This document shows, piece after piece, positions 14,800 to 23,155 of a DNA stretch of 64,000 nt. Positions within the stretch are counted from its first letter, which is position 1. Each line of letters opens with the position of its first letter. A program made the translations under genes and the position numbers. Where the stretch lies: contig JAFTLT010000012.1 in the NCBI GenBank assembly GCA_017452785.1, positions 1-64,000 on the forward strand, read 5' to 3'. Below the pieces are notes generated by a model. It ran no database searches, was not told where the DNA came from, and saw only the letters and a program-made list of their open reading frames with translations. Origin of the DNA: Clostridia bacterium. GTDB lineage: Bacteria > Bacillota > Clostridia > Oscillospirales > Acutalibacteraceae.

Positions 14800-15261
14800 A
14801 TGTCAATCGAAAGAGTAAGAGAACACTTTAAAACCTTGGGTATTGAAGAACGAATAATGGAATTTGATGTGTCAAGTGCAACTGTTGAGCTGGCTGCGCT
14901 GGCAGTCGGAGTTGAGGGCGCAAGAATAGCTAAGACCCTTTCGTTTCTTGTGCATGATGAGCCAATACTTATCGTCACTGCGGGCGACGGCAGAGTTGAC
15001 AACAAAAAGTATAAGGCAGTCTTTGGCGCCAAGGCTAAAATGCTCACTCACGAGCAGGCTGCCGAAATGATAGGCCATGCCGTGGGCGGTGTTTGTCCCT
15101 TTGCTGTTAATGAGGGTGTAAGGGTTTATCTTGACGAAAACCTGAAACGGTTTGAAACAGTTTTTCCTGCCTGCGGAAGCTCAAACAGTGCAATTGAGCT
15201 GACAATAGAGGAGCTCGAAAAGTATTCAGGCTTCACTCAGTGGGTGGATGTATGTAAATAA
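14800..15261 (+). CDS. YbaK/EbsC family aminoacyl-tRNA editing protein
   Basis: A 153-residue single-domain protein of the YbaK/ProX trans-editing family, which hydrolyse mischarged tRNAs such as Cys-tRNA(Pro). Family features: ARIAKTLSFLV, GDGRVDNKKYK, VGGVCPFAV and PACGSSNSAIEL. ATG 14800 is set by AAGGAGAT (14788-14795). It sits at the end of the aromatic operon after the 29-residue ORF. The exact tRNA specificity is not evident. Confidence 0.85.
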   Translation: MSIERVREHFKTLGIEERIMEFDVSSATVELAALAVGVEGARIAKTLSFLVHDEPILIVTAGDGRVDNKKYKAVFGAKAKMLTHEQAAEMIGHAVGGVCPFAVNEGVRVYLDENLKRFETVFPACGSSNSAIELTIEELEKYSGFTQWVDVCK

Positions 15262-15348: not shown

Positions 15349-15498
15349 ATGAAGCACATCAAAACAATTGAAACTCGCAACCTTTGCAAAAGCGCAAAGA
15401 ACGGTGGCTGCGGCGAATGCCAGACATCATGCCAGAGCGCTTGCAAAACAAGCTGCGGCATCGCAAATCAGGAATGCGAAAATAAAGAAAGCAAATAA
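15349..15498 (+). CDS. scfA: SCIFF ranthipeptide precursor
   Basis: A 49-residue precursor of the six-cysteines-in-forty-five family. The start MKHIKTIETR and the core CGECQTSCQSACKTSC are hallmark. Cysteines fall at 21, 24, 28, 32, 36 and 43, plus a seventh at 13 in the leader part. The maturase installs Cys-to-Thr thioether links; the biological role of the product remains open. An ATG five bases upstream (15344) gives only ATG AAA TGA, so 15349 is the start. It lies upstream of its maturase gene, separated by a hairpin. Confidence 0.95.
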   Translation: MKHIKTIETRNLCKSAKNGGCGECQTSCQSACKTSCGIANQECENKESK

Positions 15499-15563: not shown

Positions 15564-16943
15564 ATGATACATCAGTATAAGCTTGGCGGTTATAATATAG
15601 TGCTTGACATCTGTTCAGGTGCAGTTCATGTTGTGGATGATGTTGCCTATGACATTATTGCTGATTTTGAAAACAAGGATAAGGCTGAAATAATCAGCTC
15701 TCTTTGCGAAAAATATAAAGATGAAGACGATATAACAAAAGAGGATATTGCCGAATGTTATAAGCAGGTTGTTTCTTTGAAAGAAAGCGGCAAGCTTTTT
15801 ACTCCCGACAGCTTCAGACCTATGGCGGGCGAGCTTAAAAGAAAGACCTCAGGTGTTATAAAAGCTCTTTGCCTTCATGTTGCTCACTCATGCAACCTTA
15901 ACTGCGCTTATTGCTTTGCTGCTCAGGGCAAATATCAGGGTGAAAGAGCACTTATGAGCTTTGAAACAGGCAAAAGAGCACTTGATTTTCTTATAGAAAA
16001 CTCAGGCAGCCGCCGCAACCTTGAGGTGGACTTTTTCGGCGGTGAGCCTCTTATGAACTGGGATGTAGTCAAAAAGCTGGTTGAGTACGCAAGAAGCATC
16101 GAAAAGGAAAAGGGTAAAAACTTCCGTTTCACCCTGACAACAAACGGTGTGAATATTGACGATGATGTTATAGAGTTTTCTAACCGTGAAATGAGCAATG
16201 TTGTTCTCAGTCTTGACGGCAGAAAAGAGGTTCATGACCGTTACAGAGTTGATTACAGCGGCAAGGGTAGCTGGGACCTGATAGTGCCTAAGTTTCAGAA
16301 GTTCGTAAAAGAAAGAGGTAACAAAAACTATTATATGCGTGGCACCTTTACTCATGCGAACCCGGATTTCCTTGAGGATATAAAGCAGATGCTCTCATTA
16401 GGTTTCACAGAGCTGAGCATGGAGCCCGTTGTCTGCGCAAGCGGTGCCCCATCAGTGCTGACCGAGGAGGATAAAGAAGTAGTTCTCTCGCAGTATGAAA
16501 AGCTGGCAGAGCTTATGCTTGAAAAAGATAAAGAGGGCAAGTCCTTTACCTTCTATCACTATATGATTGACCTTAAGGGCGGTCCCTGCATTTATAAAAG
16601 AATCAGCGGTTGCGGCTCAGGCACAGAGTATATGGCAGTTACACCTTGGGGAGATCTTTATCCCTGCCATCAGTTTGTGGGTGATGAAAAATTCCGTCTT
16701 GGCGATATATGGCACGGTGTTTCAAACATCGGAATTCAGGATGAATTTGCCGCTTGCAATGTTTATGCAAGAGAAGACTGCCACGATTGCTGGGCAAAGC
16801 TTTATTGCTCAGGCGGCTGTGCAGCTAATGCATATCATTCCACAGGCTCGGTAACAGGTGTTTATAAATACGGCTGCGACCTTTTCAGAAAAAGAATGGA
16901 ATGTGCAATTATGGTTGCCGTTGCAAGAGAATTAGGTGAATGA
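15564..16943 (+). CDS. scfB: SCIFF maturase, radical SAM/SPASM thioether synthase
   Basis: A 459-residue radical SAM enzyme. Residues ~1-100 match the peptide-binding RRE-like N-terminus. The SAM cluster motif is C110-x3-C114-x2-C117 (CNLNCAYC), then DFFGGEPLMNW. The C-terminal SPASM part holds many cysteines (CGSGTEYMAVTPWGDLYPC; CHDCWAKLYCSGGC) for auxiliary Fe-S clusters. It forms thioether crosslinks in the upstream peptide. GTGAGGAAT precedes the ATG. The next gene starts 1 nt after the stop. Confidence 0.95.
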   Translation: MIHQYKLGGYNIVLDICSGAVHVVDDVAYDIIADFENKDKAEIISSLCEKYKDEDDITKEDIAECYKQVVSLKESGKLFTPDSFRPMAGELKRKTSGVIKALCLHVAHSCNLNCAYCFAAQGKYQGERALMSFETGKRALDFLIENSGSRRNLEVDFFGGEPLMNWDVVKKLVEYARSIEKEKGKNFRFTLTTNGVNIDDDVIEFSNREMSNVVLSLDGRKEVHDRYRVDYSGKGSWDLIVPKFQKFVKERGNKNYYMRGTFTHANPDFLEDIKQMLSLGFTELSMEPVVCASGAPSVLTEEDKEVVLSQYEKLAELMLEKDKEGKSFTFYHYMIDLKGGPCIYKRISGCGSGTEYMAVTPWGDLYPCHQFVGDEKFRLGDIWHGVSNIGIQDEFAACNVYAREDCHDCWAKLYCSGGCAANAYHSTGSVTGVYKYGCDLFRKRMECAIMVAVARELGE

Positions 16944-18282: not shown

Positions 18283-18290
18283 ATATAAAT

Positions 18291-18320
18291 GCCTCACCCG
18301 TTCTGAGTGAGGCAAATTTT
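18291..18320. terminator. Bidirectional terminator between convergent units
   Basis: gcctcac (18291-18297) pairs with gtgaggc (18307-18313). aaattttgtttt follows on + and atttatattt on the minus strand. It separates the + strand decarboxylase from the minus-strand peptide cluster. Confidence 0.7.
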
Positions 18321-18323
18321 GTT

Positions 18324-18428
18324 TTACACAAGCTCTGTGGGCCAACCTTCTGTGTTGATACCGTTATTTTTAAGAATTGCTACAACGAGCTTGAAAATGT
18401 TGTTGATTAAATTTGAAATGAAACCCAT
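18324..18428 (-). CDS. Small amphipathic peptide 1 (34 aa)
   Basis: Encodes MGFISNLINNIFKLVVAILK followed by NNGINTEGWPTELV. AAAGGAG lies 9 nt upstream of the ATG and a near-consensus promoter lies further up. Residues 3-19 form a helix with hydrophobics at 3/4, 7/8, 11, 14/15 and 18/19, so amphipathic. A Gly at 23 is followed by a polar tail with Pro near the end. It shares M1, F3, I/L4, I11, I18, L19, G23, a hydrophobic at 24 and N/D at 25 with the next two genes, without gaps. No cysteine and no cleavable signal. The function is unknown to me. Candidates are a signalling peptide, a membrane-active peptide or a small regulatory membrane protein. Confidence 0.75.
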   Translation of the reverse strand: MGFISNLINNIFKLVVAILKNNGINTEGWPTELV

Positions 18429-18455
18429 AATGTTTTCTCCTTTTCTTTAATATCG

Positions 18456-18470
18456 TGTGAATTTATCACA
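18456..18470 (-). promoter_or_regulatory. Inverted repeat TGTGA-N5-TCACA over the predicted start of transcription
   Basis: Reads the same on both strands in its 5-bp arms and lies just downstream of the -10 of the peptide 1 promoter. A sister element with 6-nt spacing occurs at peptide 2. It may be an operator for a CRP/FNR-superfamily regulator or a 5'-UTR hairpin. Confidence 0.45.
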
Positions 18471-18475
18471 ACACC

Positions 18476-18504
18476 ATTGTACATAATATTTACATAAAAG
18501 TCAA
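18476..18504 (-). promoter_or_regulatory. Promoter of peptide 1
   Basis: On the minus strand: TTGACT (18504-18499), 17-nt spacer, TACAAT (18481-18476). It lies immediately beyond the terminator of peptide 2. Confidence 0.75.
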
Positions 18505-18506
18505 CA

Positions 18507-18538
18507 TAAAAAACAAACTCCGCTTTGAAGCGGAGTTT
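18507..18538 (-). terminator. Terminator of peptide 2
   Basis: aaactccgc (18515-18523) pairs with gcggagttt (18530-18538); on the minus strand the stem is followed by gttttttatg. Confidence 0.85.
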
Positions 18539-18551
18539 ATCTTTGCTTTAA

Positions 18552-18665
18552 TTATTCAGCGGGGAAAAGGTCTTCGTTGAATGCTGTTACATCAACACCT
18601 GAAGCCTTGAGAATGCTCATAATCATGTCATAGATGCTTTCAAGAATGTTTTTGATGAAATTCAT
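18552..18665 (-). CDS. Small amphipathic peptide 2 (37 aa)
   Basis: Encodes MNFIKNILESIYDMIMSILK followed by ASGVDVTAFNEDLFPAE. ACGGAGG precedes the ATG. It is paralogous to the flanking peptides along residues 1-25 (F3, I4, N6, I11, I18, L19, K20, G23, V24, D25) and diverges in an acidic tail containing Pro. Net negative, with an amphipathic helix at 3-19. It is monocistronic with its own promoter and terminator. No family name is recognised. Confidence 0.78.
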   Translation of the reverse strand: MNFIKNILESIYDMIMSILKASGVDVTAFNEDLFPAE

Positions 18666-18691
18666 TTTAGTATCCTCCGTAATTAAATTTC

Positions 18692-18709
18692 TTGTGAATG
18701 TTTTCACAA
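18692..18709 (-). promoter_or_regulatory. Inverted repeat TTGTGA-N6-TCACAA at the peptide 2 start of transcription
   Basis: A perfect 6-bp-arm palindrome just downstream of the -10. It matches the CRP/FNR-superfamily spacing TGTGA-N6-TCACA; the analogous site at peptide 1 has N5. At this position a bound protein would repress. Confidence 0.5.
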
Positions 18710-18713
18710 TTCA

Positions 18714-18741
18714 ATTTTACACATATTCCATAAAAAGTCAA
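18714..18741 (-). promoter_or_regulatory. Promoter of peptide 2
   Basis: On the minus strand: TTGACT (18741-18736), 16-nt spacer, TAAAAT (18719-18714). The spacer begins TTTTATG, close to TTTATG in the peptide 1 promoter, consistent with duplication of the whole unit. Confidence 0.7.
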
Positions 18742-18770
18742 TAACTTTTTTTCATTGTTAACAATTTGAG

Positions 18771-18799
18771 TAAAAAAATAAGCCCTGCCGGAGCAAGGC
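18771..18799 (-). terminator. Terminator of peptide 3
   Basis: gccctgc (18782-18788) pairs with gcaaggc (18793-18799) with one G-U; on the minus strand it is followed by ttattttttta. Confidence 0.85.
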
Positions 18800-18813
18800 C
18801 TATCAGTAGGCGA

Positions 18814-18939
18814 TTATTCGCCTTCTTTTTCTGTTGTGGGAATTTCACCGGGAACTCTGTCGGTGTTAAGACCAAAGAAGTTGAGAATGTCAAGAACGAA
18901 CTTAACGATTGCGTTGTAAAATTCAGTTAAAAAATCCAT
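18814..18939 (-). CDS. Small amphipathic peptide 3 (41 aa)
   Basis: Encodes MDFLTEFYNAIVKFVLDILN followed by a 21-residue tail ending TTEKEGE. CGGAGG lies upstream of ATG 18939; a longer in-frame extension to 19023 crosses the promoter and has no ribosome binding site. It is the third gap-free family member (F3, L4, I11, I18, L19, G23, L24, N25, T26 shared with peptide 1). It has the longest and most acidic tail of the three. Function is unknown. Confidence 0.78.
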   Translation of the reverse strand: MDFLTEFYNAIVKFVLDILNFFGLNTDRVPGEIPTTEKEGE

Positions 18940-18972
18940 AGTGTTTTCCTCCGAGAAAATTATTGTAATAAT

Positions 18973-19001
18973 ATGATAACTCTTTTTTATCAAGTTGTCA
19001 A
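18973..19001 (-). promoter_or_regulatory. Promoter of peptide 3
   Basis: On the minus strand: TTGACA (19001-18996), 17-nt spacer, TATCAT (18978-18973). The spacer and -10 hold an inverted repeat TGATAA-N7-TTATCA. The TGTGA palindrome of the other two is absent. Confidence 0.65.
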
Positions 19002-19134: not shown

Positions 19135-21540
19135 ATGGCAGATAAAGAATTTTTAGATTTAAGACGAAAAATAATTGAAAAAGACTTTCAGCATATGAAT
19201 GATAAGCAGAAGCAGGCTATCTTTCAGGTTAAGGGTCCTGTGCTCATTCTGGCAGGTGCAGGCAGCGGAAAGACAACGGTTATTGTTAACAGAATTGCAA
19301 ATATAGTTAAATACGGCAACGCATATAACAGCAAAGAGTGTGCCTTTGAGCCGTCAGTTCACGACCTTCGCAGCATGAGAGCATATCTTGACGGTGATGA
19401 GAGTGTGCTCTTTGATATAGAGGATTTGCTTTCAGTTGAGCCTGCAAGACCTTGGCAGATTCTTGCCATCACCTTCACCAATAAGGCTGCAAACGAGCTT
19501 AAAGAGCGTCTTGAAAAAATGCTTGGTGAAGAAGCAAAAGACATATGGGCTTCAACCTTCCATTCATCTTGTGTTCGCATACTTCGCCGTGACGGTGAGG
19601 TTTTAGGCTACACAAAGCATTTCACCATTTATGACACAGATGACACCAAGCGTCTTATCAAGGAATGTCAGAGACAGCTTAATATTTCTGATAACACTAT
19701 TTCATATAAGGCAATTATAGGTGAAATCAGCCGTGCAAAGGATAACCTTATTTCCCCGGCAGAGTACGAGAAAAAGGCAGCAAACGAAAAAGACTCACGA
19801 ATGCAGAAAATAGCTGCCTGCTATAAGATGTATCAGAGTGAAATGAAAAAAGCCGATGCAATGGACTTTGACGATATTATTGTCAACACTGTTAACCTTC
19901 TTGAAAAATATGACGATGTAAGAGAATATTATCAGAAAAAGTTTAAATATATTATGGTCGACGAATATCAGGACACCAACCATGCACAGTATAAGCTGAC
20001 GGAGCTGCTTGCAGGCATGCACAGAAACATATGCGTTGTGGGTGACGATGACCAGAGCATTTACCGTTTCAGAGGTGCAACCATTGAGAATATCCTCTCA
20101 TTTGAGCATCGCTATGCAGAAAGCCAGATTATCCGTCTTGAGCAGAACTACCGTTCCACACAGACAATACTTGACGTAGCCAATGAGGTTATCTCAAACA
20201 ATCACAAGCGTAAGGGCAAGAGTCTGTGGACATCTAATCCGGGCGGTGACAAGGTTGTGGTGAACACTGCCTATGATGAAAGCGACGAGGCTAAATTTAT
20301 AGCTGACACAATTGAAGAAAATGTTGCTTCAGGCAAATTCGGCTTCAGTGACCATGCAGTGCTTTACAGAATGAATGCACAGTCAAACTTTATTGAAAAG
20401 GTTCTTGTCAGAGCAGGTATTCCCTACCGGATTATCGGCGGTCACCGTTTCTATGAAAGACAGGAAATAAGGGATGCTATTGCATATCTGACTGTTGTTA
20501 ATAACCCCAGTGACAATATAAGGCTTCGCCGAATAGTCAATATTCCTAAAAGAGGTATAGGCGAGGCAACACTCAATAAAGCTGCAGAAATTTCAACAGG
20601 TCTTGGCATAAGTATGTTTGAGGTCTTCAAGCAGTCTGAGGAATTTGATGCTCTGAGAAGAAGTGCCAAAAAGCTCATAGCCTTCACTCAGATGATTGAG
20701 GAGCTTCGTGAAAGCCTTGACAAGGTGCCTCTTGATGAGCTTTTCACAGAGATTATTCACAAAACTCAGTATCTCGGTCACCTTCGTCTTGATAAAGAAA
20801 AGGGCGAAGAAAGAGAAGAAAACATCTACGAGCTTATCTCAAACCTTAAAACCTATGAGCAGGAAAATGAGGAAGCAACACTTTCGGGCTTCCTTGAGGA
20901 AGTTGCTCTTATGACAGACATTGACAATTATAACGCTCAGACTGATGCTGTTGTACTTATGACAATTCACTCTGCCAAGGGTCTTGAGTTCCCCGTTGTT
21001 TTCCTTCCGGGTATGGAAGAGGGCATTTTCCCCGGCATACAGAGTATGTATAGCCCCGACGATATTGAAGAGGAAAGACGACTTGCCTATGTCGGCATCA
21101 CAAGAGCTAAGCGTAATCTTTATATTTCCCACGCAAACCTTCGCATGCTCTTTGGTACCACCTCAAGAAACCTGCCCTCAAGATTTCTTGTTGAAGTGCC
21201 TGAGGCTCTCATTGAGAGAACGGGCAGACGTGACACCTCACAGATGAATAACTATTCACAGCCCACAAGAGCAGATGCTGATTTCGAGCGTTCACAGGGC
21301 TATTCAAGATATATGGGCACAGGCTATCTTTCAAAAATCAAGCAGCAGTCACAGCCTAAAAAAGAGGAGCTTCCCAAGCTTAGCTTCAGTGTGGGCGACA
21401 CAGTCATCCACAAGGTTTTCGGTCAGGGTGTTATACTCTCAAGCAAGCCTATGGGCAACGACTCAATGCTTGAAATAGCCTTTGAAAAAGCGGGCACTAA
21501 AAAGCTTATGGCAAATTACGCCAAGCTTGAAAAGAAATAA
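19135..21540 (+). CDS. pcrA: PcrA/UvrD-type ATP-dependent DNA helicase
   Basis: An 801-residue superfamily 1A 3'-5' helicase for repair and for clearing transcription-replication conflicts. Motifs: Q-motif MNDKQKQAI, Walker A AGAGSGKTT (~residues 40-48), ITFTNKAANEL (~112), VDEYQDTN, GDDDQSIYRFRGA, LEQNYRST, TIHSAKGLEFPVVFLPG and AYVGITRAK. Between motifs I and Ia there is a ~40-45 residue acidic insertion (about 65-108) absent from Bacillus PcrA. The C-terminus (VGDTVIHKVFGQGVI) is the Tudor-like RNA-polymerase-binding module. GAGG precedes the ATG. The next gene is 13 nt away. Confidence 0.92.
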   Translation: MADKEFLDLRRKIIEKDFQHMNDKQKQAIFQVKGPVLILAGAGSGKTTVIVNRIANIVKYGNAYNSKECAFEPSVHDLRSMRAYLDGDESVLFDIEDLLSVEPARPWQILAITFTNKAANELKERLEKMLGEEAKDIWASTFHSSCVRILRRDGEVLGYTKHFTIYDTDDTKRLIKECQRQLNISDNTISYKAIIGEISRAKDNLISPAEYEKKAANEKDSRMQKIAACYKMYQSEMKKADAMDFDDIIVNTVNLLEKYDDVREYYQKKFKYIMVDEYQDTNHAQYKLTELLAGMHRNICVVGDDDQSIYRFRGATIENILSFEHRYAESQIIRLEQNYRSTQTILDVANEVISNNHKRKGKSLWTSNPGGDKVVVNTAYDESDEAKFIADTIEENVASGKFGFSDHAVLYRMNAQSNFIEKVLVRAGIPYRIIGGHRFYERQEIRDAIAYLTVVNNPSDNIRLRRIVNIPKRGIGEATLNKAAEISTGLGISMFEVFKQSEEFDALRRSAKKLIAFTQMIEELRESLDKVPLDELFTEIIHKTQYLGHLRLDKEKGEEREENIYELISNLKTYEQENEEATLSGFLEEVALMTDIDNYNAQTDAVVLMTIHSAKGLEFPVVFLPGMEEGIFPGIQSMYSPDDIEEERRLAYVGITRAKRNLYISHANLRMLFGTTSRNLPSRFLVEVPEALIERTGRRDTSQMNNYSQPTRADADFERSQGYSRYMGTGYLSKIKQQSQPKKEELPKLSFSVGDTVIHKVFGQGVILSSKPMGNDSMLEIAFEKAGTKKLMANYAKLEKK

Positions 21541-21553
21541 AGGAGCGACTTTT

Positions 21554-23155
21554 ATGAAAAAGACATTCAAAGCGGCAATTTCCCTTATCCTCACAGTTAT
21601 TCTTGTTTTCTGTACGCTTTCAGTTGCAGCAGCAAAGGAAGATGTGACCCCGGTTATAGTTGTCAGCGGTATGAACTCATTCCCTTTGACAAATGCTCAG
21701 GGTGAGCAGGTTTATCCCCCTTCAGGTGACAAAATCACAAGCCTTGTTATGGATAACATAAAGCCTCTTTTAGGCTTTCTTGCCACAGGTGACTGGCAGA
21801 AATTAGGCGACGAAATCATCTATGATGTTTACGAAGACCTTTTCAATGAGATAGTCTGTGATGAAAAGGGCAACTCCGTAAATGAAATCAAGACCTCAAT
21901 CTTCCCCAAGAGTGTTGACAATTATCCTGATGTGTTTGCAGGCGGTGAAGAAACCGAAGACGAAATCGGCATAGTCAAGGGTCTTATTGAGGATATCGGC
22001 GGTGAGAATGTCTATTTCTTTAACTATGACTGGCGTCTTGACCCCATGAAGCACGCCGATGATCTTAATGCTTACATCGAAAATGTCAAAAAAGAAAAGG
22101 GCAGCCATAAGGTTACACTTATCCCCTGCAGCATGGGCGGCACCGTAACAAACTCCTACCTTTATAAATACGGTAACGGCAGTGTCAATAAGGTTATTTA
22201 TGCAATGACAGCCATTCAGGGGCTTGATGCTGTGGGTGAGGTTTTCCACAGAAATATTGATGTTGATGTTGATGTGCTTATGGCTTATCTTTTCTCAATG
22301 CAGAGAGACGACCTTGCTATGCAGATTCTTATGTCGGCTCTGGCTTCATTTACAGAGGTTACTCCCGCAATAACAAAGTGGATGGATTCATTTATTGACG
22401 AATCCCTTGATGAGCTCAATGACAGAGTTTATGATGAGCTTATGTGCATTTCTTTCGGCACTCTGCCGGGCTTCTGGTCACTTGTGCCTGACAGCTATTA
22501 TGATGAAGCTAAGGATATTTTCTTCGGCGGCAAGATAAACAAGACCTTCGAGAGTGTTATCGATAACTATCACTATAACGTGCAGGCAAGAGCCGAGGAA
22601 ATTATGAAATCAGCTGCCGATAACGGCACAGAAATTTATGTTCTCGCTTCCTACGGCTATGTGGGCGGCCCTTACACCAATAAGGCTATGAATCAGTCTG
22701 ACTGCCTTATTGAAACAGCAAATCAGAGCCTTTGGGCAACAACGGCTCTTTACGGTGAGAGCTTCTCAGAAGATTATGAAGCTATAGGTACGAAATGTGC
22801 TGATAAGAGCCATAACCATGTGTCCACTGACGGAATAATTGATGCTTCAACCTGCGGCTTCCCTGAAAACACATGGTTCATTAAGTATAATAAGCATGTG
22901 GGCATGCCTTGCGGCACAGACTGTCAGAAGCTGATGACCTATCTTGTTACAAGCGAAAGCTATGTAAATGTTCATTCCGACGAAAGCTATCCTCAGTTTA
23001 TGTCACTTAATAAAAACACAGGCAAGCTCACAAGCCTCACAGGTGACGAAATAAATGCTGATATAACAAGCGGCAAAAGTGGCTTCTTTATGAGACTTGT
23101 TGAAATATTCAGAAACATTTACATAAATATCTGCACTCTTTTTGACCGTGGATAA
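21554..23155 (+). CDS. Exported LCAT-like alpha/beta hydrolase (lipase/esterase)
   Basis: A 533-residue protein with a signal peptide (cleavage near residue 27, after VAAA) and the lecithin:cholesterol acyltransferase-like fold. Evidence: PVIVVSGMNS near the mature N-terminus, FFNYDWRLDPMKHADDLNAY (YDWR is an LCAT-family hallmark), and the nucleophile elbow IPCSMGGTV with Ser193, in which the usual first Gly/Ala of the elbow is Pro. A late HVSTDGIID could supply the catalytic His. It ends in a hydrophobic amphipathic tail (FMRLVEIFRNIYINICTLF). It probably acts on lipids or esters outside the membrane; the substrate is unknown. AAGGAG precedes ATG 21554, 13 nt after pcrA. Confidence 0.72.
   Translation: MKKTFKAAISLILTVILVFCTLSVAAAKEDVTPVIVVSGMNSFPLTNAQGEQVYPPSGDKITSLVMDNIKPLLGFLATGDWQKLGDEIIYDVYEDLFNEIVCDEKGNSVNEIKTSIFPKSVDNYPDVFAGGEETEDEIGIVKGLIEDIGGENVYFFNYDWRLDPMKHADDLNAYIENVKKEKGSHKVTLIPCSMGGTVTNSYLYKYGNGSVNKVIYAMTAIQGLDAVGEVFHRNIDVDVDVLMAYLFSMQRDDLAMQILMSALASFTEVTPAITKWMDSFIDESLDELNDRVYDELMCISFGTLPGFWSLVPDSYYDEAKDIFFGGKINKTFESVIDNYHYNVQARAEEIMKSAADNGTEIYVLASYGYVGGPYTNKAMNQSDCLIETANQSLWATTALYGESFSEDYEAIGTKCADKSHNHVSTDGIIDASTCGFPENTWFIKYNKHVGMPCGTDCQKLMTYLVTSESYVNVHSDESYPQFMSLNKNTGKLTSLTGDEINADITSGKSGFFMRLVEIFRNIYINICTLFDRG

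Follow-up and report, generated by a model that had tools for sequence, protein, structure and literature searches.

Phenol-soluble modulins of staphylococci are leaderless amphipathic helices of ~20-60 residues that are encoded by clustered mini-genes and fall into shorter and longer classes; a Pmt-type ABC transporter exports them, and they have surfactant or cytolytic activity. To our knowledge, surface-active peptides of this kind are known only from staphylococci. Other systems share parts of this layout: AgrD has an amphipathic N-terminal helix followed by an acidic tail, with a Cys for the thiolactone ring; the leaderless bacteriocins aureocin A70 and garvicin KS consist of several cationic helical peptides per cluster, encoded in operons with transporters; and the Ldr/Ibs type I toxins are hydrophobic peptides from tandem independent mini-genes.

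Here, we analyzed three mini-genes, A, B and C, in a 64,000-nucleotide stretch of DNA from a Clostridia bacterium (the window, meaning this whole stretch). They and their relatives resemble phenol-soluble modulins as leaderless amphipathic (predicted helical) peptides from clustered mini-genes, with shorter and longer classes. They differ in lineage, in matching no phenol-soluble modulin model, in having secreted Cys-rich and ~130-aa helix proteins as neighbors of the family, in that some relatives carry signal peptides and in that no transporter, of the Pmt type or otherwise, was noticed beside the window genes. On our best reading, the mini-peptides may 'work like' phenol-soluble modulins in design and are unrelated to them in sequence. 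The array in the window has the following features:

18814..18939, minus strand: mini-gene C, 41 aa, MDFLTEFYNAIVKFVLDILNFFGLNTDRVPGEIPTTEKEGE; orthologues in G005 and G020
18973..19001, minus strand: promoter of C, TTGACA-17-TATCAT, 11/12; similar promoter in both orthologues
18948..18952, minus strand: Shine-Dalgarno site of C, GGAGG
18777..18804, minus strand: terminator of C, hairpin
18552..18665, minus strand: mini-gene B, 37 aa, MNFIKNILESIYDMIMSILKASGVDVTAFNEDLFPAE; orthologues in G005 and G020
18714..18741, minus strand: promoter of B, TTGACT-16-TAAAAT, 10/12; similar promoter in both orthologues
18692..18709, minus strand: inverted repeat TTGTGAAAACATTCACAA where the B transcript should begin; 5' hairpin (or operator)
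18674..18678, minus strand: Shine-Dalgarno site of B, GGAGG
18515..18538, minus strand: terminator hairpin of B, then GTTTTTT on the minus strand; the tool listed the plus strand only
18324..18428, minus strand: mini-gene A, 34 aa, MGFISNLINNIFKLVVAILKNNGINTEGWPTELV; orthologue in G005
18476..18504, minus strand: promoter of A, TTGACT-17-TACAAT, 10/12
18456..18470, minus strand: inverted repeat TGTGATAAATTCACA where the A transcript should begin; 5' hairpin (or operator)
18437..18442, minus strand: Shine-Dalgarno site of A, AAGGAG
18290..18314, minus strand: terminator of A, hairpin

All three genes start with ATG and have sigma-70-type promoters, and they comprise 34 (A), 37 (B) and 41 (C) codons. 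For B and C, the ATGs are the likely starts because longer ORFs would cross the promoters and add no recognizable signal peptide. Signal peptides are absent from A, B and C, and no exporter adjoining them was noticed when the gene map was read by eye. On one side of the array lies a gene resembling PLP-dependent decarboxylases (weak NCBIfam matches) and on the other a pcrA/uvrD-like helicase gene; the names pcrA, ybaK and uvrC were assigned by eye from translations. An earlier sequence-only reading of this DNA had placed and translated the three mini-genes correctly, and its ungapped alignment of 26 N-terminal residues, with M1, F3, I11, I18, L19 and G23 in common, was confirmed. A simple gene caller found no other minus-strand genes in the window, as that reading had said, and each mini-gene does have its own promoter, Shine-Dalgarno site and terminator, making the three independent transcription units. 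Within the array kilobase, promoter-like sites were not clearly above chance (9 versus 5.6 +/- 2.6 in shuffles), and terminator-like sites were above it (4 on both strands versus 0.3 +/- 0.6). A SCIFF ranthipeptide precursor (window 15349-15498; TIGR03973, 81.8 bits) and its radical SAM maturase (15564-16943; TIGR03974, 755 bits) lie 1.4-3 kb from the array.

Using peptide C to search 35 same-genus genomes, we found the same place in one genome with four mini-genes (G005) and two genes in another (G020); the fourth G005 gene is a paralogue of B (21/39 identical). Seven pairs of orthologues were compared for A, B and C, with dN of 0.08-0.37 and dS of 0.55-1.40, giving ratios of 0.10-0.36 overall and 0.21-0.36 in the five pairs containing a window gene. 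Between the window and G005, dN/dS was 0.23/0.74 for C, 0.16/0.77 for B and 0.25/0.80 for A. When the same substitutions were re-placed at random 2000 times, the observed protein similarity was reached at most once in each pair (window versus G005: 1 for C, 0 for B and 0 for A), using a protein-guided codon alignment that slightly favors this result. The sequence-only reading had treated the three as genes, and conserved orthologues with synonymous-biased substitution were indeed present in two same-genus genomes. Judged by the low dN/dS of these orthologues, A, B and C are real genes under purifying selection.

Orthologues also bear on the Pro-containing tails, for which selection toward divergence had been proposed. 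Identical residues between orthologues numbered 10/11 (A), 11-13/14 (B) and 7-9/18 (C) in the tails, compared with 15/23 (A), 16-20/23 (B) and 10-15/23 (C) in the helices. Thus, for A and for each of the three B pairs, tail conservation equals or exceeds that of the helix, and the C tail is looser than its helix. The paralogues do differ, but the A and B tails are paralogue-specific and yet kept across species, which is the opposite of diversifying selection.

The peptides differ in net charge (A 0, B -4, C -5), and their hydrophobic moments rank in the top 0% (A), 0% (B) and 1.7% (C) of their own shuffles, with helical wheels that display a single nonpolar arc of ~180 degrees. The usual hydropathy threshold for a transmembrane segment is 1.6, and maximum 19-residue Kyte-Doolittle values were 1.66 for A, 1.11 for B and 1.17 for C. 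By these measures, A would be borderline transmembrane, B and C do not look transmembrane, and all three would be amphipathic if helical.

Comparison with existing libraries yielded no match above cut-off for A, B and C in Pfam, NCBIfam, PHROGs and PADLOC, in agreement with the earlier statement that the family was not recognized, nor for their relatives in Pfam, NCBIfam and PADLOC. The best weak matches, all below cut-off or to models without one, were to DUF4389 (E 0.18) and phrog_2731 (E 0.13) and, for relatives, to AgrD (E 0.01) and an aurein-like model (E 0.0065). PDB sequence searches gave nothing above cut-off (two matches at E 0.87 and 2), and Rfam gave sub-threshold matches only. No phenol-soluble modulin or delta-toxin model was listed at E up to 10 in Pfam and NCBIfam for A, B, C and 17 relatives, and the titles and abstract openings of the literature searched contained no description of the mini-gene family.

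Leaderless amphipathic mini-genes of 26-66 aa were found in 29 of the 35 same-genus genomes when gene maps were read by eye; none was seen in G007, G014 and G017, and G023, G027 and G033 had signal-peptide forms only. These counts are lower bounds because the maps cover only stretches around matches. Arrays contain one to seven mini-genes, with seven in G030:C8 and, over both strands, in G008:C16. Recurring types include window-like MDF/MEF peptides, a Trp-rich type (MAEFF..., MDFAVIKDMYAFLWEFIYK...), the W-type described below and longer forms of up to 66 aa. The window's own genome (G000) carries a contig, C61, with three mini-genes beside a gene for CHCC, a secreted protein described below (L047), and another, C44, with one W-type gene (L138). 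From the first loci, we collected 76 Shine-Dalgarno-preceded small ORFs regardless of helix, and in 59 of them, including A, B and C, the helical moment ranked within the top 5% of shuffles of that ORF. Dropping seven unrelated-looking ORFs (including two SCIFF peptides) left 69, of which 57 passed this test; 64 were net acidic, 3 net basic and 1 contained Cys. Judging from these relatives, A, B and C are one outpost of a larger genus-wide system.

A profile of 16 peptides detected further mini-genes, its matches above ~E 0.001 being largely chance. Four matches in other genera (E 1.7e-4 to 9.4e-4) fell in large ORFs, namely at the N-termini of L074, L076 and L077 and, in a secreted protein of 434 aa (L075), at the C-terminal helix, and were not counted as members. 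One longer mini-protein likewise had matches in other genera, again to large ORFs (two, at E 1e-4 and 2.7e-4). Of 200 family genomes, 3 carried the Trp-rich type 2, each of them belonging to the same genus, and a scan of viral contigs with type-2 peptides found none, which argues weakly against a phage origin.

Several further features were observed around the mini-genes. A distinct mini-protein type of 51-53 aa, in which a basic RR/KR pair precedes a hydrophobic FGLIG-like end, accompanies longer mini-gene arrays (L184 831-989; L185 625-783 and 828-989; L201 7665-7820), and longer mini-genes follow an aquaporin-like gene (by eye) in G029, G031 and G011 (L062 4709-5377, L063 3709-4377, L031 714-1382). 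At L187 1286-1435 (G033:C7), a strong Shine-Dalgarno site precedes a mini-protein of 49 aa that is rich in Cys, Gly and Asn (MSCNNSLFGTNCCTWLIIILLLVLF...) and contains a hydrophobic stretch. Secreted proteins resembling alpha/beta-hydrolases or lipases (by eye) lie near mini-genes in several genomes (window 21554-23155, L052 2810-4594, L054 3826-5028, L204 5576-7045), the one in the window matching a PHA depolymerase model at E 0.0009, far under cut-off; this proximity may be a coincidence of a multi-copy family.

The W-type, with the pattern ..WL.ELI.RL..V..KLLIKLGIK.., occurs in 17 of the 35 genomes. It is leaderless in 11 (G000, G001, G005, G009, G012, G016, G021, G022, G024, G032 and G034) and begins with a signal peptide (judged clear by eye) plus acidic linker in 6 (G018, G023, where it starts from GTG, G026, G027, G030 and G033); G026 carries a leaderless copy on the same contig as the leadered one. 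It sits between an XRE gene and the gene for the ~130-aa protein in G021 and G032 (leaderless) and in G033 (leadered). Window-type and W-type profiles were collinear over 25 columns with a score of 18.8, which was reached by 0 of 200 column shuffles (maximum 12.4) and 0 of 200 shuffles preserving hydrophobic class (maximum 13.5), although hhalign's own probability for this kinship was low (15% and 31%) and the W-type profile comprised four sequences. Because a type collinear with the window peptides exists both with and without a leader, an envelope or outside site is likely, and this kinship provides the chief, if indirect, argument for placing the window peptides at or outside the membrane. 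Leadered forms were seen for the W-type only, none being of the window type, and the roles of the two may differ since the W-type helix is lysine-rich and A, B and C have charges of 0, -4 and -5.

CHCC is a secreted (signal peptide by eye), Cys-rich protein with 13-18 cysteines and a conserved C-terminal amphipathic helix. In an alignment of 29 sequences (148-178 aa), ten Cys columns were invariant and three nearly so. At E 1e-6, CHCC was found in 34 of the 35 same-genus genomes (in G034 one longer ORF matches twice) and was missing in G004; its loci include L047, L061, L080 and L098, with G000:C61 and G005:C15 among the contigs. Mini-genes lie directly downstream of CHCC in 15 of 30 mapped loci, and in the other 15 no mini-gene was seen within 1.5 kb downstream. 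Searches of 200 genomes of the family (135 genera) and 394 of the order (169 genera), with 18 (family) and 9 (order) candidates scored per genome, gave no convincing match outside the genus. Matches in 8 genomes of 7 other genera (E 3e-4 to 1e-3) were not counted, as they cover the profile from position 1-2 to position 28-87 of 161 and therefore look like signal-peptide matches.

A second secreted protein, of ~130 aa and with a lysine-spaced helix, was clear in 31 of the 35 genomes (E of 1e-20 or lower in 30, and 1.6e-13 in G029); in G000, G004, G022 and G034, the search gave weak signal-peptide-like matches only. Its gene is often preceded by that of an XRE regulator (HTH_3 identified for G019). 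Neither CHCC nor the ~130-aa protein had a match above cut-off in Pfam, NCBIfam and PADLOC. We do not claim homology between the C-terminal helix of CHCC and the mini-genes: the match to the mini-gene profile was no better than the hydrophobic pattern predicts, with 25 of 200 class-preserving shuffles reaching its score. Comparison of the mini-genes with the ~130-aa protein found no relationship.

The full set adjoins a ybaK-like gene in G012, G016 and G019, and in G012 and G019 pcrA lies beyond it. The window array has a similar neighborhood, with a ybaK-like gene at 14800 and pcrA at 19135, and on account of this it may have arisen as a copy of that locus. Beside the window array there is no CHCC and no ~130-aa gene; its genome (90% complete) carries CHCC on contig C61, and the search there gave no clear ~130-aa protein.

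Strong promoters extend across the family. On a scale with a maximum of 12.5, including a bonus for 17-bp spacing, 59 of 69 mini-genes scored at least 10, compared with 8.7% of shuffles. CHCC promoters were near-perfect (29 of 30 at 11.5 or more), and 9 of 49 window genes of at least 90 codons reached a score of 10 over a longer search stretch. The idea that A, B and C are separately regulated gained no support; their promoters are all near-consensus, which looks more like strong steady expression.

Hairpins at the 5' end, which can stabilize mRNA, were also enriched. Thirty of 64 mini-gene leaders folded better than 95% of their own shuffles, and 36 of 46 leaders, with 32 distinct stems in all, had a 5' stem of 5 bp or more close to where transcription should begin, versus 38% of shuffles. 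Folding at p<=0.05 was seen in 5 of 30 CHCC leaders, in 0 of 6 ~130-aa genes with leaders long enough to fold and in 10 of 38 control window genes with poorly defined leaders, so that the enrichment relative to controls is moderate. Within the window, A and B have the hairpin and C is without it. We initially took these inverted repeats for operators; an RNA hairpin fits better because the B orthologues have a different stem sequence at about the same position. The common TTAAGG...CCTT type of repeat may still act as an operator.

How might these peptides function? Our leading explanation, which we consider about as likely to be right as wrong, is by analogy with phenol-soluble modulins: A, B and C would be genus-specific leaderless surface-active helical peptides that act at the envelope, most likely outside, as a surfactant or coat. 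A strong vegetative-type promoter would give a short mRNA for each gene, opened by a 5' hairpin in A and B and closed by a terminator hairpin in all three, a combination that would favor high, steady expression. The first ~23 residues would fold into an amphipathic helix that has a single broad nonpolar face and stops at the conserved Gly23; this helix would lie flat in the membrane interface with the tail in water. The resulting surfactant or surface-coating mixture would probably act alongside the secreted helix-bearing CHCC and ~130-aa proteins. This explanation builds on the genes and their selection, the amphipathic pattern, the arrays, their occurrence in the genus, the gene neighborhoods and the leadered relatives (signal peptides by eye), which we regard as established. 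Counting against it are the lack of a signal peptide or noticed exporter and the absence of the partners beside the window array, together with leadered forms seen for the W-type only, the low hhalign probability of that kinship, the difference in charge from the W-type, a CHCC helix match that its hydrophobic pattern accounts for, and a hairpin excess that is weaker against other window genes, small in CHCC leaders and missing from C. It is unlikely, though conceivable, that acidic and cationic mini-peptides co-assemble outside the cell with the CHCC and ~130-aa helices into a surface coat or surfactant film; this would be a genus-wide system of gut Clostridia with species-specific arrays of up to seven mini-peptides, and it becomes slightly less probable because the window's genome has no clear ~130-aa protein.

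The peptides could instead stay inside the cell, bind the inner leaflet and tune membrane proteins or curvature as small membrane regulators. We think this possible but doubtful: it would suit peptides that have no signal peptide, no exporter noticed by eye beside them and, given their Kyte-Doolittle maxima (1.66, 1.11 and 1.17), an amphipathic rather than clearly transmembrane character, but leadered W-type relatives in 6 genomes and a secreted protein directly upstream of mini-genes in 15 of 30 loci argue against it. A role as leaderless multi-peptide bacteriocins that permeabilize competitors appears quite improbable. Like aureocin A70 and garvicin KS, the arrays encode several different leaderless, amphipathic (predicted helical) peptides, their composition varies between species, and a W-type pair in G009 adjoins ABC-type ATPase genes (L140; named by eye). 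Unlike those bacteriocins, the mini-peptides are mostly acidic (64 of the 69 collected) and the window genes have separate promoters; moreover, no adjacent immunity gene was recognized by eye in the gene map, and the companion CHCC is near-universal in the genus rather than patchy (one genome per species).

Of the roles suggested by the sequence-only reading (peptide signals, membrane-active peptides or small membrane regulators), a probably membrane-active function gained from the evidence that the family is amphipathic and under purifying selection, and a cyclic-peptide signal came to look unlikely. Indeed, AgrD-like or RiPP signal precursors strike us as very improbable. The short amphipathic N-terminal helix followed by an acidic tail recalls the AgrD layout, one longer same-genus mini-protein matches Pfam AgrD (PF05931) at E 0.01, and a SCIFF ranthipeptide with its maturase lies 1.4-3 kb away. 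That match, however, scores 16.3 bits against a cut-off of 22.7, and A, B and C do not match AgrD and contain no Cys (found in 1 of the 69); SCIFF has its own maturase, no modifying enzyme was noticed directly beside the mini-genes, and no agrB-like neighbor was noticed by eye in the window gene map. Type I toxins paired with antisense antitoxin RNAs are hardly credible here: tandem, independently promoted mini-genes for hydrophobic peptides are reminiscent of Ldr/Ibs and an Rfam istR match exists below threshold (24.4 bits versus a gathering score of 45, E 0.017), but no strong opposite-strand promoter covers the genes (best plus-strand sites 9/12), and the peptides are amphipathic, B and C not being transmembrane-like and A being borderline. 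Lastly, their small size might suggest chance ORFs between terminator hairpins, a negligible prospect given purifying selection on the orthologues, similar orthologue promoters and promoter strength across the family; orthologue selection refutes it as far as sequence can.

This analysis marks out a gene set that is unclassified by the libraries searched, comprising the mini-genes, CHCC, the ~130-aa secreted protein and the W-type. Natural leaderless and leadered pairs of one peptide make the route by which leaderless peptides get outside directly testable. If the surface-active reading is true, peptides resembling phenol-soluble modulins would belong to a gene system that is near-universal in one genus of gut Clostridia.
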